Shown: one piece after another, positions 10,094 to 19,237 of the stretch
How the letters are laid out: each line of letters begins with the position of its first letter
How positions within the stretch are numbered: position 1 is the first letter of the stretch
IMG/VR virus record: IMGVR_UViG_3300042923_000448
Location: 1-20,660 of that record
Source: a virus
Direction: 5' to 3' (one strand)
DNA: 20,660 bases
Notes under the pieces: generated by a model
Told to the model about the DNA's origin: nothing
The model's input: the letters and a program-made list of their open reading frames with translations, nothing else
The model's database searches: none
Position numbers and translations under genes: made by a program

Positions 10094-10232
10094 ATCCTCC
10101 GCGTCCGCTCACGTCTCCCACCACCACGAGGACGGCGCCGGTTGGCCGTGCCCCGAAACCGTCGACACGGACGGTCGGGTCCGCGGTCGCTGCATCGCAC
10201 CTGAACTCTTCACCGAACGAAAGGCAAGTTGA
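10086..10232 (+). CDS. Very small protein before the VUT transporter (48 aa)
   Basis: A 48-aa protein read from ATG 10086, overlapping the zinc-ribbon protein by 8 bases and ending TGA at 10230-10232, whose last base starts the transporter ATG. It has a His/Ser-rich start (SASAHVSHHHEDG), two cysteines (C22, C36) in GWPCPETVDTD and RVRGRCIAPE, and a polar tail. The two Cys and the HHH could bind a metal. No family is recognised. Its one-base overlap with the transporter gene suggests it is co-translated with that cassette. Confidence 0.55.
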   Translation: MAESSASAHVSHHHEDGAGWPCPETVDTDGRVRGRCIAPELFTERKAS

Positions 10233-10798
10233 TGAACACCACAGGCAAGCGGGTCACTGGATGGATTCTGGTGGCCGTTTTCATTTCCACGGTCGTACTG
10301 GCGAACGTACTCACCACCCACTTCGGGTTCGTCCCGGTCGGGTTCGGGTTCATGGCCACGGCGGGAACGTTCGTAGCCGGCGCGACCCTCGCACTCCGAG
10401 ACGGGGTACAGGACACCCTCGGCAGGCGGGTGGTACTCGGGGCGATCCTTGCAGGTGCCGCCCTGTCGTTCGCAATGTCGGCACCGTTCATCGCACTCGC
10501 ATCGGTGGTCGCGTTCGTTGTCTCCGAGCTCGCTGACTACGCCGTGTACACGCCGATCCGGAAGCGTGCACGGTTCGGTGACGCCAAGTGGGCCATCGCT
10601 GTAGCCGCCTCCACCGTCGTGGGGGCTGTGGTCGACACGGTCCTGTTCCTCGGGATCGCGTTCGGTCCCGCAGCGATCATCCCGGCACTCCCGGGGCAGT
10701 TGGTGGGTAAGGCGTGGGCGATGCTCGCGTTCCTTCTGATCGGGTGGGGGGTCTCACGTGTGGTACTTCGCAAACCCGTCAACCCCGCAAGTACGTGA
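10232..10798 (+). CDS. yhhQ: VUT-family queuosine-precursor transporter (YhhQ-like)
   Basis: A 188-aa integral membrane protein of the VUT/YhhQ family. ATG 10232 overlaps the previous stop. Five to six hydrophobic segments are visible (about 10-27, 35-55, 68-90, 115-138, 142-178). Family motifs include ANVLTTHFG, an AGATLALRDGVQDTLGRR segment at about 50-67, and ADYAVYTPIRKR. E. coli YhhQ imports preQ0/preQ1, the deazaguanine precursors of tRNA queuosine. Phages carrying this gene often pair it with a DpdA that puts such a base into DNA. Here the next gene, overlapping by 41 bases, is exactly such a candidate. No preQ0-synthesis gene (queC, queD, queE or folE) is in the window, so the base is probably taken from host or medium. 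Confidence 0.9.
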   Translation: MNTTGKRVTGWILVAVFISTVVLANVLTTHFGFVPVGFGFMATAGTFVAGATLALRDGVQDTLGRRVVLGAILAGAALSFAMSAPFIALASVVAFVVSELADYAVYTPIRKRARFGDAKWAIAVAASTVVGAVVDTVLFLGIAFGPAAIIPALPGQLVGKAWAMLAFLLIGWGVSRVVLRKPVNPAST

Positions 10799-11363
10799 AC
10801 GGATGAGCGCAGGAGAGCTTGGTTGCATCGTCACGCCCCGTCAAGGAAACAAGATCCCGGACGGGGCGTTCTTCTGCGCCGACAACGGCGTATTCGGCAA
10901 GGGATACCCGGGGGAAGACGCCTGGTGGGAGTGGCTAAGTTCACTCCCACCAGAGCGTTGCCTGTTCGCCGTCGCACCCGATGTGGTCGGGGACGCCGCA
11001 GCAACGTTGGTCACGGCAACCCCGTGGCTGCCCCGCATCCGCGAACTGGGTATCCCTGCCGCATTCGTCGCACAGGACGGCGCCGAAACGGTCGGTGTCC
11101 CGTGGGACGAGTTCGACTGGCTGTTCATCGGCGGGTCAACGGAATGGAAGCTCGGGCCACACGCTCGAGCCTTCACCGCGGAAGCGAAGAAGCGGGGCAA
11201 GCAAGTCCACATGGGCCGCGTCAACTCCGCTACCAGAATGCGGTTCGCGAACGCCATCGGCTGCGATTCCGCAGACGGCACTTTTATCACCTTTGGCCCT
11301 GATGTGAATCTGCCAAAGGTGCTGGGTTGGTTGCGTCAGGTCCACGCACCGACGCTGTTTTGA
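10758..11363 (+). CDS. dpdA: DpdA-like DNA transglycosylase (TGT superfamily)
   Basis: A 201-aa protein from GTG 10758 with a GGGTGGGGGG site just upstream. It has the motif order of tRNA-guanine transglycosylases: ADNGVF (D42) in place of TDSGGFQ, VAPDVVGD (D75), FVAQDG (Q106) as in VVQGG, FIGGSTEWKLG (124-133) as in GGLAVGE, and HMGRVNSATRMRFANAIG followed by CDSADGTF, where D173 aligns with the catalytic Asp of TGT. The C-terminal zinc site of tRNA enzymes is absent and the protein is about half their length, as in phage DpdA-type enzymes that exchange guanine in DNA for a 7-deazaguanine. I think it belongs to the DpdA2 group, with less certainty. Product and sequence target are not readable. 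Confidence 0.85.
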   Translation: MWYFANPSTPQVRERMSAGELGCIVTPRQGNKIPDGAFFCADNGVFGKGYPGEDAWWEWLSSLPPERCLFAVAPDVVGDAAATLVTATPWLPRIRELGIPAAFVAQDGAETVGVPWDEFDWLFIGGSTEWKLGPHARAFTAEAKKRGKQVHMGRVNSATRMRFANAIGCDSADGTFITFGPDVNLPKVLGWLRQVHAPTLF

Positions 11364-11373
11364 AAGGAACACC

Positions 11374-11424
11374 ATGCTTGCGAAGTACCACGACGAACTC
11401 AAAGCCTGGCTGGAGACGAAATGA
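11374..11424 (+). CDS. Mini-ORF (16 aa), probable gene remnant
   Basis: ATG 11374 has GAAAGGA at 11362-11368 and encodes only 16 residues ending YHDELKAWLETK before TGA 11422-11424, which overlaps the ATG of the KYRKKP copy 2. Its last part is a perfect 25-base match (11392-11416) to 14230-14254, the end of the membrane-protein gene at 14077 (EDELKAWLE). It therefore looks like the tail of such a gene, refitted with a start and ribosome site, and may serve mainly to couple translation of copy 2. Confidence 0.45.
   Translation: MLAKYHDELKAWLETK
11392..11416 (+). repeat. 25-bp perfect direct repeat, unit A (partner 14230-14254)
   Basis: The bases at 11392-11416 are identical to 14230-14254 and encode DELKAWLE in both places. 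The first copy precedes KYRKKP copy 2, the second ends the 61-aa membrane-protein gene. It looks like a trace of recombination between related gene cassettes. Confidence 0.85.
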
Positions 11425-11696
11425 AGTACCGCAAGAAGCCAGCCGTCATCGAGGCCATGCAACTGACCGACAACTGGCGTGAGGTGTGTGACTGGGTGAA
11501 CGCGCACGCGGAGCGAGTCGATCCGTACCGCCCGAGTGCCTACCTGCCCAGCGGCCCTGACGCGGACATCCTCATCGTCACACTGGAGGGCGATATGCGG
11601 GCCGTTCCTGGCGACTACATCATCCGCGGCGTGCAGGGCGAGTTCTACCCGTGCAAGCCCGACATCTTCGAGGCGACATACGACTTGGCCGAGTAG
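11421..11696 (+). CDS. Conserved phage protein, KYRKKP family (copy 2)
   Basis: A 91-aa paralogue of the protein at 811-1095, starting at ATG 11421 in an ATGA overlap with the mini-ORF. It agrees with copy 1 at 80 of 90 aligned residues. The substitutions are mild except near the C-terminus (IFEATYDLAE versus IFAQTYERAD). The DNA has a perfect 45-base match and scattered, mostly silent changes elsewhere, so both copies appear to be maintained as proteins. Function unknown. It is the last gene before the promoter-terminator module, at the end of the early gene block. Having two copies in one genome is unusual and implies recent duplication or horizontal gain of the second. Confidence 0.9.
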   Translation: MKYRKKPAVIEAMQLTDNWREVCDWVNAHAERVDPYRPSAYLPSGPDADILIVTLEGDMRAVPGDYIIRGVQGEFYPCKPDIFEATYDLAE

Positions 11697-14077: not shown

Positions 14078-14262
14078 TGTGGCGTTGGGTGACGATCGCC
14101 GCGGTAGGCATCGGCCTCATCACCGCGGCGGTGTGGTTGCTGTGCCTCCTCGTCCTCGCAGCACCCGGGTTTTTGGCCCTGTTGTTCCTGTTGCCTGTGT
14201 TCCATGCGTCCGTTTTGCCGTCGTGGGAAGACGAACTCAAAGCCTGGCTGGAGAGACCATGA
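14077..14262 (+). CDS. Small two-pass membrane protein
   Basis: A 61-aa protein from ATG 14077 (TGATG overlap). Two hydrophobic segments occupy about residues 3-25 and 28-48, with very little loop between them, followed by a charged tail SWEDELKAWLERP. The tail DNA (14230-14254) is identical to 25 bases in the mini-ORF at 11374. A two-pass membrane protein with a charged C-terminus could be a holin, but it is shorter than most, lies far from any lysis gene, and I do not assign it. Its stop overlaps the ATG at 14259. Confidence 0.65.
   Translation: MWRWVTIAAVGIGLITAAVWLLCLLVLAAPGFLALLFLLPVFHASVLPSWEDELKAWLERP
14230..14254 (+). repeat. 25-bp perfect direct repeat, unit B (partner 11392-11416)
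   Basis: Identical to 11392-11416 over 25 bases and, in both places, in the frame encoding DELKAWLE near the end of a gene whose stop overlaps the next ATG. See the partner for interpretation. Confidence 0.85.
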
Positions 14263-14456
14263 CGTCGAGGGCTGAGGATCTGACCGAAGCGCAAGCAAGC
14301 CCACAGGCTCAAGTCGCGCGAGTTAAGCCCTGTACCGCAACCCTGGTACTCGACTACGACTCACTGGACTGTTACCTGTCTGATGGTCACGCCGGCCCCC
14401 ACAAAGGACGCGGCGAACACCACGCATTCTTCTGGCAGTACGAGGTGATCCGGTGA
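14259..14456 (+). CDS. Small protein with C...C...GHxGPH metal motif (65 aa)
   Basis: A 65-aa protein from ATG 14259 (ATGA overlap). Residues 1-22 are polar. Then C25, C38, H44 and H48 appear in a PCTATLVLDYDSLDCYL, SDGHAGPHKG arrangement that looks like a compact zinc site. The GHxGPH motif after a Cys pair is a repeated pattern in small phage proteins of unknown function. The C-terminus is aromatic (AFFWQYEVIR). It overlaps the next GTG in GTGA at 14453. Confidence 0.65.
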   Translation: MTSRAEDLTEAQASPQAQVARVKPCTATLVLDYDSLDCYLSDGHAGPHKGRGEHHAFFWQYEVIR

Positions 14457-15481: not shown

Positions 15482-15672
15482 ACGGATGTTCGACAGTCCC
15501 ACCTCAAGGGGTGGGGGAGGCCCCCTTCAACCCTCCTGCCAAAGTACCGCCGGGGAGGTGTGAAAAACCTCGGACGGGTTCAAAACGTTCCAAACCGCCT
15601 CTGTTCGTAGGGGTGTTCGACTGTTCCGACGTGGCGTGATGCCGCGCAGCGTGATGCTGAGGATGTGATGTC
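15482..15672. other. Candidate cos/packaging region
   Basis: 191 bases between the HNH gene and terS with no gene. It holds a GC-rich hairpin GGGGG-AGG-CCCCC (15513-15525), enclosed by AAGGGG/CCCCTT (15506-15511/15522-15527). A near-repeat TGTTCGACAGT (15487-15497) / TGTTCGACTGT (15614-15624) could be terminase-binding sites. Position alone, between a cos-type HNH and terS, makes this the best place to look for cos. No cohesive end can be read from sequence. Confidence 0.4.
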
Positions 15673-16125
15673 ATGCCTTCTGGTGGTGCTCGTGCCCGTA
15701 GTGGCCCTTCGCCTGATCCGAGCTCGTTCCGGTCGATGGATCGGGAGTGGGTTGATCTTCCTGTTGCTGGTTTCGCCGGCACGATTCCTGCGTTCCCCCT
15801 GCCTGACGCTCTGTCGGTGGAGGTTGAGTTGTGGGATGAGTTGTGGCGGAAGCCGCAGGGTGCCGCGTGGGATGCTCTGGGCCTGAAGTTTCAGGTGGCG
15901 GCGTATGTGCGCGCGTATCTTGAGTCTGTTCAGGAGAAGGCGTCGGCGGGGTTGAAGACTGCTGTGCTTCGCATGGAGGCGGAGCTCGGTCTGAACGTTC
16001 CGGGTATGCGGTCGAATGGGTGGCGGATCTCTGACGGTTCTGTGGCGGCGCCGGTTGCGACTCCTGCTGCTCGGCAGACGTCGTCGGGTGACTGGCTGAA
16101 GGCTGTCTCCGTTGAAGGGGCCTGA
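15673..16125 (+). CDS. terS: Terminase small subunit
   Basis: A 150-aa protein assigned mainly by position directly before the large subunit (14-base overlap) and by its resemblance to P27-type small terminases. ATG 15673 has GAGGA at 15659-15663. The N-terminus is polar and disordered (GGARARSGPSPDPSS). Residues 35-105 carry helices with the pattern FPLPD...VELWDELWRKPQGAAW, then VAAYVRAYLESVQEKASAGLKTAVLRMEAELGLNVPGMRSNGWRI. The tail is Ala/Thr/Ser-rich. Small subunits assemble as rings that recognise the packaging site and deliver DNA to the large subunit. Confidence 0.85.
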   Translation: MPSGGARARSGPSPDPSSFRSMDREWVDLPVAGFAGTIPAFPLPDALSVEVELWDELWRKPQGAAWDALGLKFQVAAYVRAYLESVQEKASAGLKTAVLRMEAELGLNVPGMRSNGWRISDGSVAAPVATPAARQTSSGDWLKAVSVEGA

Positions 16126-17764
16126 CTACAAGATCCCGCCTCGTACTCGTTCTCTCGGTTACCTGGGCATGTGGTGGATTGAGAATCACTGTGTTGTCCC
16201 GGAGGGTGACACGGCTGGTGACCCGTTCATGCCGACGCTGGATCATCGTGTGTGGTTGGCGAATTGGTATGAGGTTCGTTCGACGGCGAAGCCTGGTGAG
16301 CGTAATCAGGCGTTCCGGTATCGCACGGGGCAGTGGATGGCGGCGCAGAAGGTCGGCAAGTCGCCTGGTGTGGCCGCGGAGACGTGCCTCGAGTTCGTGG
16401 GGCCGGCGCTGTTCGACGGTTGGGCGGAAGAGGGCGACTACTACGCGTGCGCCGATCACGGGTGTCCGTGTGGGGGCGTGTACTTCTACGAGGCGGGGGA
16501 GCCGAAGGGGCGCCCTTGGCCTACGCCCCGCATCCAGCTTGCGGCTGTCGTCGAGGATCAGGTGGAGAACACCTGGGGCGCTCTTATCCCGATGATCGAC
16601 TCGGGGCCGCTGTCGAACATGATCCGCACGGGTGAGGCGTTCATCCGTCACCCGAACGGGAACCGTGACTCGCGGGTTGAGATCGTCACGTCGAAGGCGG
16701 ACGGCAAGCTTGGTGCGCGTATCTCTGCGGGGAAGTGTGATGAGACGGGTCTGTGGACTGACTCGAACAAGATGAAGAAGTTCATGCGTACTTTGCGGCG
16801 TGGTGCTGCGGGTATGGGTGGGCGGGTGTCGGAGACGACGAACCCGTATGACCCGGCTGAGGCTTCTCAGGCGCAGGACACGCACGAGTCGAAGCGTAAG
16901 GACGTTCTCAAGCACTACTTCCCGCCGCCGGCGAATCTTCGATTCGATCTGAAGAAGGATCGTGCGTTGATCTTCGCGTTCAACTATGGCGGGTCGCCCT
17001 GGGTGGATCAGCGGTCGATTGAGGCGGAGTCTCAGGCGCTTGCGGAGTCGAATCCGGCTGAGGCGGAGCGGTTCTTCGGGAACCGGATCGTCGCGGGATC
17101 GGGTGCATGGTTCGACATGACGAAGTGGGCTGACCGGAAGGTTGAGACCCCGGTCACGGTGTCGGCTCGGACGAAGGTGTGTGCCGGGTTCGACGGGTCG
17201 AACAACGATGACCACACCGGCATCCGGCTCGAGACTCTGGACGGGTACCAGTTCACTCCGTTGTATGGCGACGCGCGGCGTAAGACGCATTGGCGCCCGC
17301 AGGACTGGGATGGGCGTATCCCGCGCGCTGAGGTGATGGCCGCGTGGTCGCAGCTCGCGTCTGAGTTCGAGATCGTCCGCGCGTACCTTGACCCGGCGTT
17401 CTGGGAGTCCGAGGCGGACACTCTCGCCGCAGAGCACGGCGAGAAGGTGTTCATCAAGTGGGCTACGAACCGCCTGAATCCGATGCACGCCGCGCTCGAG
17501 CGGTTCCGTACGGACGTGTACAACGTCGAGTCGGACTTCTGGCACGACGGTGACGGGGACGTTGAAGCGCATCTGCGTAACGCGATCCTCCGCGCGCGTG
17601 GTGTGGACCCCGCGACGGGAATCAACCGGTACTTCATCGCGAAGCCGACCGACCCGCAGAAGATCGACCTCGCTATGTGTTCTGTGCTCGCTCATGAGGC
17701 GCGTATGGACGCGATCGCTGCGGGAGCGCTGGCCTCTCAGCCGGACAACTTCATTTACTACTGA
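16112..17764 (+). CDS. terL: Terminase large subunit
   Basis: A 550-aa protein, the packaging ATPase and nuclease. TTG 16112 is the most likely start, overlapping terS by 14 bases; the next ATG (about residue 20) would remove part of the family N-terminus. The ATPase half has an AAQKVGKSPGVAAE segment (about 77-90) at the Walker A position. Conserved regions follow: LAAVVEDQVENTW and FIRHPNGNRDSRVEIVTSKADGKLG. The nuclease half has acidic metal-binding residues in AGFDGSNNDDHTGI (about 360) and AYLDPAFWESE (about 425). It cuts concatemeric DNA and pumps it through the portal encoded next. The DNA here is rich in G/T at third codon positions, unlike the early genes. Confidence 0.95.
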   Translation: MKGPDYKIPPRTRSLGYLGMWWIENHCVVPEGDTAGDPFMPTLDHRVWLANWYEVRSTAKPGERNQAFRYRTGQWMAAQKVGKSPGVAAETCLEFVGPALFDGWAEEGDYYACADHGCPCGGVYFYEAGEPKGRPWPTPRIQLAAVVEDQVENTWGALIPMIDSGPLSNMIRTGEAFIRHPNGNRDSRVEIVTSKADGKLGARISAGKCDETGLWTDSNKMKKFMRTLRRGAAGMGGRVSETTNPYDPAEASQAQDTHESKRKDVLKHYFPPPANLRFDLKKDRALIFAFNYGGSPWVDQRSIEAESQALAESNPAEAERFFGNRIVAGSGAWFDMTKWADRKVETPVTVSARTKVCAGFDGSNNDDHTGIRLETLDGYQFTPLYGDARRKTHWRPQDWDGRIPRAEVMAAWSQLASEFEIVRAYLDPAFWESEADTLAAEHGEKVFIKWATNRLNPMHAALERFRTDVYNVESDFWHDGDGDVEAHLRNAILRARGVDPATGINRYFIAKPTDPQKIDLAMCSVLAHEARMDAIAAGALASQPDNFIYY

Positions 17765-17779
17765 GCCTTTGGAGGGCGC

Positions 17780-19237
17780 ATGGACGCGGATGCGGCCCGG
17801 AAACTGACTCAGCGGATCTACACCCGCCTGAACAACCGTCGCCCGGATATTGAGCGGGCGGAGTCGTATTACGAGGGCGATCAGCCCCTCAACTTTGCGA
17901 CTGATGAGTGGAAGAAGGCGAACGCGTCCCGGTACGCGGATTTCTCCGACAACTGGTGTGGGACGGTTGTGAACGCTGAGGCGGAACGTCTGAAGCCGAT
18001 CGGTGTGACGAACATGCCGAAGGGTGCGGCGTCGAAGCTGTGGGACGCGTTGCAGATGAACGAGTTTGATGCTCAGTTCTCGCAGGGTGCTGTTACGGCT
18101 CTGACTGCTAAGCGGTGTTTCGTGATCGTGTGGGGCGACCCTGATGGGGAGCCGATTGTCACGTTTGAGCACCCGTCGTCGGTTGAGATTGAGTACGACT
18201 GGGAGAATCCGCGTCTGCGGACGGCCGCGTTGAAGACGTGGGTGGATGAGGACGACGAGTACGCGACCCTGTACACCGCGGAGTGGGTGTTCAAGTGGAT
18301 TCGTCCGCGGGTGACGCCGGCTAACGAGCTCGAGTCGATGTCGGAGCAGCAGCGTGAAGAGTACGCCGCGTCCGGTGGGTGGAAGCAGCGCGACGGTTCC
18401 TCGGACGATGCGTGGCCCGTCAAGAACCCGCTGGGCGTTGTGCCTGTGGTGGAGATCCAGAACCGTCCGACGCTGAAGGGCGACCCCCTGTCGGAGATTC
18501 AGGGTGTCATGCCCATGCAGGATGCTATCAACCTGCTGTGGGCGTACCTGTTTCTGGCTGCGGATTACGCGTCGATGGATGCGCGGGTGATGCTCGGCAC
18601 GCAGCCGCCCATGATCCCGATCCTGGACGCGGACGGTAAGCCGATCGGTCAGCGGCCGGTGGACATGAAGGATCTCCGGGAACGGCGCCTCATCACCATC
18701 ACTGGGGATAACGCGAAGATCGACTCGTGGAAGGCTGCGAGCCTCGACATCTTCACGGACACGATCGAGATTGCGGTGGGGCATATTGCGGCGCAGACCC
18801 GCACACCCCCGCACTACCTTGTGGCGAACAAGGGGATCTCGAACCTGTCCGGTGATGCGCTGAAGTCCGCTGAGATCGGTCTGAACAAGAAGGCTGGGGA
18901 GTTCATCACGTTCACTGACCCGCAACTGCGGGAGGTGCTGCGGTTGGTGGCTCTCGTAAAGGGTGACGCGAAGACGGCGCAGGCTACCCGGCTGGCGCGG
19001 ATCGTCTGGGAGTCCCCTGAGATCCGGTCTGAGGCGCAACTGGCGGATGCCCTGTTGAAGAAGGCGCAGATGGGGTACCCGTTCGAGTACCTGCTGGAAC
19101 TTGACGGGCGTTCGCCGGCTGAGATCCGGCGGATTATGAAGCTGCGTAAGGCGGAGCTTGACGACGCGTTGGGTGCGGGCGCGCAGATGGCGGTTCAGGG
19201 GGCCATTGATGACGGCTCTGACGAGGTTGGCGAGTGA
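17780..19237 (+). CDS. Portal protein (SPP1 gp6-like)
   Basis: A 485-aa portal protein. ATG 17780 follows GGAGGG at 17771-17776. The N-terminal pattern LTQRIYTRLNNRRPDIERAESYYEGDQPL, SRYADFSDNWCGTVVNAEAERLKPIGV is typical of the SPP1-type portal family, as are the later PVKNPLGVVPVVEI and QDAINLLWAYLFLAADYAS segments. Twelve copies form the ring at one vertex of the head through which terminase packages DNA and to which the tail attaches. The C-terminus (KLRKAELDDALGAG) runs into a 29-base overlap with the MuF gene, consistent with production at related levels. Confidence 0.95.
   Translation: MDADAARKLTQRIYTRLNNRRPDIERAESYYEGDQPLNFATDEWKKANASRYADFSDNWCGTVVNAEAERLKPIGVTNMPKGAASKLWDALQMNEFDAQFSQGAVTALTAKRCFVIVWGDPDGEPIVTFEHPSSVEIEYDWENPRLRTAALKTWVDEDDEYATLYTAEWVFKWIRPRVTPANELESMSEQQREEYAASGGWKQRDGSSDDAWPVKNPLGVVPVVEIQNRPTLKGDPLSEIQGVMPMQDAINLLWAYLFLAADYASMDARVMLGTQPPMIPILDADGKPIGQRPVDMKDLRERRLITITGDNAKIDSWKAASLDIFTDTIEIAVGHIAAQTRTPPHYLVANKGISNLSGDALKSAEIGLNKKAGEFITFTDPQLREVLRLVALVKGDAKTAQATRLARIVWESPEIRSEAQLADALLKKAQMGYPFEYLLELDGRSPAEIRRIMKLRKAELDDALGAGAQMAVQGAIDDGSDEVGE

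Follow-up and report, generated by a model that had tools for sequence, protein, structure and literature searches.

A probable two-gene salvage cassette for 7-deazaguanine modification of phage DNA, formed by a VUT/YhhQ-type transporter and a compact DpdA-like enzyme

In a survey of phage 7-deazaguanine modification, phages encoding a DpdA protein without preQ0 genes formed the largest group; their modification status was considered difficult to predict, and uptake of an exogenous precursor was proposed for them (Hutinet 2019, PMC6884629). The same study found YhhQ in some phages, uncorrelated with any phage group, cited Zallot 2017 for YhhQ as a preQ0 transporter, and is our source, from work on other phages, for the protection from restriction that DNA 7-deazaguanines confer. 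More recently, a 2025 preprint reported YhhQ in ∼9% of bacterial dpd islands (PMC11888242). A salvage route made up of a transporter and a DNA insertase has already been proposed for the YhhQ of dpd islands and phages (PMC11888242; PMC6884629), and the general idea, with phage DpdA and with YhhQ in some phages, is thus not new.

Here we analyzed a stretch of 20,660 bases, hereafter the window, which is the whole of a virus fragment record. Its terminase is most similar to that of Brevibacterium phage AGM1 (56.5% identity) and its nearest relatives are actinophages. The order of genes is ERF recombinase, DnaB-type helicase, SSB, the transporter/enzyme pair studied here, terminase, portal and a structural gene. 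The features of the pair are the following.

10232..10798, + strand: VUT/YhhQ-type queuosine-precursor (preQ0-type) transporter, ATG to TGA, 188 aa, phrog_4899
10758..11363, + strand: compact TGT-superfamily protein (DpdA-like), proposed 7-deazaguanine insertase, GTG to TGA, 201 aa, phrog_15826
10758..10798, + strand: overlap of the transporter and enzyme genes, 41 nt, two same-strand ORFs

The ORF calls agreed with a preliminary description of this DNA on both genes and on their 41-base overlap. An AAAGG-like ribosome site lies just 5′ of the transporter gene, and the overlap makes translational coupling of the two genes probable; that both proteins are made together, as the preliminary description put it, would follow from this arrangement. 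The GTG start at 10758 is credible because the N-terminal motif that follows it (YFANP/YLANP) is kept in Aoka gp40 and Sonali gp81, two relatives whose genes are free of any overlap with a transporter, and a start at the next in-frame ATG (10803) would lose this motif. As that description had also noted, neither queC, queD, queE nor folE was found in the 20,660 bases of the window. A minus-strand ORF of 1122 aa (15671-19039) was rejected as a relevant gene, being antisense to the terminase and portal genes in DNA of 63% GC.

Two repeats were seen in the window. A small gene of ∼92 aa is present in two copies (822-1091 and 11423-11692) that lie 10.6 kb apart and share 90% identity over 270 nt; one of them, the second, stands directly 3′ of the transporter/enzyme cassette. 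A 36-nt segment, GACGAACTCAAAGCCTGGCTGGAGA, occurs at the ends of small ORFs (11392-11427 and 14230-14265) in copies that are 86% identical.

The identification of the first gene as a VUT/YhhQ transporter was upheld by two family models: the protein clearly passed the Pfam Vut_1 cut-off (52.1 bits, E=1.2e-13; cut-off 27.2) and barely passed that of TIGR00697, the queuosine precursor transporter family (51.7 bits; cut-off 50.95). Its score with NF008406, the E. coli YhhQ equivalog, was 35.6, far short of the cut-off of 252. In PHROGs it belongs to phrog_4899 (E=1.8e-39), a family without assigned function. A structure model built from the one VUT sequence was poor (pLDDT 55) and was left unused.

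The enzyme was harder to place. Its sole PHROGs match was phrog_15826, labelled "unknown function" (E=6.5e-90). No TGT match was obtained in Pfam, NCBIfam or PHROGs; PF01702 (TGT) gave nothing at E≤10, the PDB sequence search returned no match with either the single protein or a 107-row profile, and the phrog_887 (DpdA1) profile did not detect it. With hhalign, the enzyme scored 90% against five DpdA1 proteins (E=1.7e-6) and 95.8% against 18 VUT-adjacent phage DpdA-type proteins (E=7e-9, 136 columns); the controls VUT, QueC, QueD and FolE all remained below 1%. The alignment to six bacterial TGTs was not significant, and that of TGT to DpdA1 was likewise weak with so few rows. Membership of DpdA2 was rejected, hhalign giving 0.3% to DpdA2 of Vibrio phage nt-1, and so was membership of DpdA1, to which the likeness is remote. 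The kinship with TGT/DpdA is real but remote, and, judged by the tests run, the enzyme represents a compact DpdA-like subfamily outside DpdA1 and DpdA2.

The structure model of the enzyme, built on 105 relatives, is a TIM barrel with a pLDDT of 97.2. Foldseek matched it to several TGTs and to the DNA preQ0 insertase DpdA (7ui4, E=1.5e-4) among solved structures, and many of the matches among viral models were phage queuine tRNA-ribosyltransferases, Sonali gp87 among them. The top PDB fold matches were ribulose-phosphate 3-epimerases, so that the barrel alone is not diagnostic of TGT. Nine residues (P74, D75, Q106, F123, G125, G126, K131, H151 and D173) were invariant in 107/107 diverse members, and D42 was kept in 106/107. 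In E. coli TGT, the residues involved in substrate binding and catalysis are D89, D143, Q187, G213-G214 and D264; D42, D75, Q106, G125-G126 and D173 of the enzyme follow the order of these motifs, a correspondence drawn from that order and from an alignment that is weak. The confident barrel and the motifs in matching order place the enzyme in the TGT superfamily by fold and active site. Hence the preliminary assignment to this superfamily with DpdA features stands as regards superfamily and motifs, and does not extend to membership of DpdA1 or DpdA2. Although simple HMMs did not recognise the enzyme as a TGT, the profile comparisons did not place it outside the superfamily, the outcome that had been named as a refutation.

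Because the enzyme shares its superfamily with tRNA-guanine transglycosylase, and VUT proteins feed the tRNA queuosine pathways of bacteria (TIGR00697), it might be supposed that the enzyme acts on tRNA, where imported preQ0 or queuine would give a queuosine-like base that improves late translation. We regard this as unlikely. The profile similarity is to phage DpdA and none was measurable to bacterial TGT; the zinc motif CxCxxC, present in 5/6 TGTs, was found in 0/107 enzyme members and 0/5 DpdA1 proteins; a length of ∼200 aa is too short for the extra TGT domains; and the Que-type contexts seen contain preQ0-synthesis genes only.

Genomic context was scanned starting from enzyme sequences only, in IMG/VR and in bacterial and archaeal genomes. 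The scans returned 414 (first scan) and at least 531 (second scan) relatives in IMG/VR; bacterial and archaeal genomes yielded 47. Among the best 80 of the 414 viral relatives, 65 had a VUT gene, 7 others had Que genes and 8 had neither. The non-redundant set comprised 110 clusters at 75% identity, with 1.54 Mb of flank in which 49 VUT genes were found; 48 of the 49 lay within 450 nt of the enzyme, all on the same strand. The transporter preceded the enzyme in 65 of 88 VUT-bearing loci, usually overlapping it or at a distance of 40 nt or less, and followed it in the other 23. The association is not due to chance, as dozens of divergent phages have the pair, Mycobacterium phages Bhagsy, Majeke and Ksquared among them.

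Where VUT is lacking, QueC, QueD or QueE often adjoins the enzyme, and curated NCBI cut-offs were exceeded by QueC, QueD and QueE at one such locus (L022) and by QueC at another (L036). In many contigs the only Que neighbour is QueC, which yields preQ0. In one relative the enzyme adjoins a QueT transporter, which is a third way to obtain the same precursor. A DpdA in the functional sense is expected beside genes for making or importing preQ0, and the enzyme was found adjacent to VUT, QueC/D/E or QueT. About 40% of the non-redundant relatives had no precursor gene nearby. The neighbours of relatives without VUT or Que genes were, by Pfam, mostly methylases, HNH, terminase and integrase proteins and one QueT, with no universal third partner among the neighbours checked.

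Several further observations concern these neighbourhoods. Among the named neighbours of the VUT/Que-less relatives, C5-cytosine and N6/N4 DNA methylases were some of the most frequent (5 and 2 of 79), a hint that different DNA modifications may be combined. Many Burkholderiaceae genomes (Caballeronia, Paraburkholderia; loci L098-L128) have a divergent branch of the enzyme whose flanks lack both VUT and Que genes; these loci are probably prophages, and their hosts may make preQ0. At three loci, one of them ReqiPine5 gp02 (L003, 8706-9623), the enzyme adjoins a PAPS-reductase/N-type ATP-pyrophosphatase gene that is not QueC by TIGR00364 and is possibly a base-tailoring enzyme.

The reverse search used VUT queries alone and covered 127 phage loci; a diverse VUT alignment was unsuited to scanning and the single VUT of the window retrieved five close relatives only. 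A TGT-superfamily gene was found within 500 nt on the same strand in 117 of the 127 loci, 36 of them of the phrog_15826 family and 81 of DpdA type, and 40 of 48 VUT clusters had such a partner. The DpdA-type neighbours that were sampled matched phrog_887 or phrog_1279, both labelled "queuine tRNA-ribosyltransferase". The compact enzyme occupies the position that is held in other phages by DpdA of known type. These data bear on the reading in which there is no pathway at all, the enzyme being some other TIM-barrel enzyme, the transporter importing another vitamin, and the two being neighbours by phage gene order. The lead of other TIM barrels among the PDB fold matches would fit such a reading, as would the first name of VUT, which was that of a vitamin transporter. 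It is nevertheless strongly disfavoured, and we consider it very improbable, given the adjacency of nearly all VUT genes, the occurrence of both gene orders, the replacement of VUT by QueC/D/E and QueT, and the recovery of TGT/DpdA neighbours by a search that started from VUT.

In mycobacteriophages Arib1, Techage, LOCV1-5 and Nix22, as well as at locus L282, only the start of VUT is matched and no enzyme gene lies beside it, suggestive of a cassette in decay.

Importer and synthesis genes largely excluded each other. QueC and QueD were detected in 0/19 VUT-type contigs (20-91 kb; among them the complete ReqiPine5 genome of 59 kb and the closest relatives of the window), with both genes detected in Que-type contig L032 as positive control; conversely, Vut_1 was detected in 0/20 Que-type contigs and in the VUT-type controls. 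Two genomes combine them: L196 carries both kinds, and phiG7 carries VUT together with DpdA1 and preQ0 genes. The enzyme tree requires at least 6 changes between the VUT and Que supply types, and Que-type members are scattered within its actinophage clade. One and the same enzyme has repeatedly exchanged its supply module, a pattern that would be difficult to account for if the enzyme did not use a 7-deazaguanine. The preliminary description had read the absence of que genes as a sign that the base is scavenged rather than made. Absence from 20 kb alone is weak evidence, but with the whole ReqiPine5 genome and 18 other contigs the case for salvage becomes much stronger, and the mutual replacement of VUT and Que genes agrees with it.

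Some genomes encode a full DpdA1 and preQ0 genes besides the enzyme (Arthrobacter phage Sonali, R29Z, phiG7, L029 and L137). Its role there may be accessory, or it may place a second mark or work in a different sequence context. Carried over to the whole family, this coexistence would suit an enzyme that is no insertase by itself and serves as accessory subunit or specificity factor of another transglycosylase. We find this explanation doubtful, since DpdA1 was absent from 18 VUT-type contigs and from Que-type contigs L032 and L035, and the enzyme keeps all TGT-like catalytic positions. The phrog_887 search of the contigs matched nowhere, controls included, and the absence of DpdA1 is therefore taken from an alignment search, in which positive controls were detected.

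Some architectures of the enzyme are unusual. In two Seuratvirus-type phages, phiG7 (L009, 5699-6291) and SHIN8, it appears to be split over two overlapping ORFs, as if frameshifted, and adjoins a complete DpdA1/preQ0 cluster. At L025 (9944-12583) it forms the N-terminal part of an open frame of ∼880 aa, the remainder of which gave a sub-threshold match to a PD-(D/E)XK nuclease (21.6 bits; cut-off 22). The domain is also found within a 499-aa marine virus protein (A0A0F7L9Z1).

All in all, the pair is probably a salvage cassette of two genes for modifying DNA with a 7-deazaguanine, and comparative genomics backs both halves of the pathway first suggested for it, import and a TGT/DpdA-type enzyme. 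In this model, the VUT protein would supply the infected cell with an imported 7-deazaguanine base of preQ0 type, and the 201-aa TIM-barrel transglycosylase, which lacks a zinc site, would put this base in place of guanine in phage DNA. D173 is the probable nucleophile, and D42, D75 and Q106 are predicted to hold the base. The presumed benefit is protection of the modified DNA against restriction enzymes of the host. We favour preQ0 as the base because QueC is so often the only Que neighbour and YhhQ is a preQ0 transporter, and DNA rather than tRNA as the target because of the similarity to phage DpdA, the phage location and the small size of the enzyme. More tentatively, phrog_15826 could be a separate minimal DNA transglycosylase subfamily that occurs in phages of many phyla and does not depend on DpdA1. 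In that case its base would come from an interchangeable supply module (VUT, QueT, QueC alone or QueC/D/E), and in phages with DpdA1 it would lay down a second 7-deazaguanine mark or act in a different sequence context. An importer tied to an insertase in a defined, large family leads to the prediction that such phages modify their DNA only when external preQ0 is available. An insertase of ∼200 aa would be small for the superfamily and an attractive tool for DNA labelling, and the analysis proposes names for over 400 phage proteins that lack annotation and for their "membrane protein" neighbours.

How does this family compare with those already described? The SEA-PHAGES GenBank name "DpdA-like tRNA-guanine transglycosylase" (Aoka gp40, Bhagsy gp55, Sonali gp81) denotes the same family, for which we found no functional or comparative study in the literature; the VUT gene beside these enzymes is labelled only "membrane protein" or hypothetical. 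E. coli YhhQ (COG1738), the preQ0 transporter, shares the Vut_1/TIGR00697 family with the window transporter but is longer (∼221 against 188 aa), and the latter falls below the YhhQ equivalog cut-off. Bacterial and archaeal TGT (PF01702) and bacterial DpdA (PDB 7ui4) share with the enzyme the barrel and the order of catalytic motifs (DSG, D, QG, GG, FD in TGT; DNG, PD, QDG, GG, DG in the enzyme), whereas the enzyme has no PF01702 match, no zinc motif and about half the length. DpdA2 of Vibrio phage nt-1 (YP_008125322, phrog_10773) has the same proposed function and is flanked by preQ0 genes, but at 464 aa it is more than twice as long, with undetectable profile similarity. DpdA4 is not known outside archaeal viruses. 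Phage DpdA1 (phrog_887; 9g, Seuratvirus, Sonali gp87) shares the TIM barrel and remotely homologous, aligned motifs, is likewise accompanied by preQ0 synthesis or transport genes and occupies the same position next to VUT; it differs in length (∼225-310 against ∼200 aa), and both can occur in one genome. In contrast to the lack of correlation reported for phage YhhQ by Hutinet 2019, VUT is here tightly tied to a compact insertase family and to DpdA of known type. The near-obligate association of this compact family with its supply genes, and the alternation of importer and synthesis genes around it, appear to be new within the literature surveyed, with the proviso that the names DpdA3 and DpdA4 may overlap with it.
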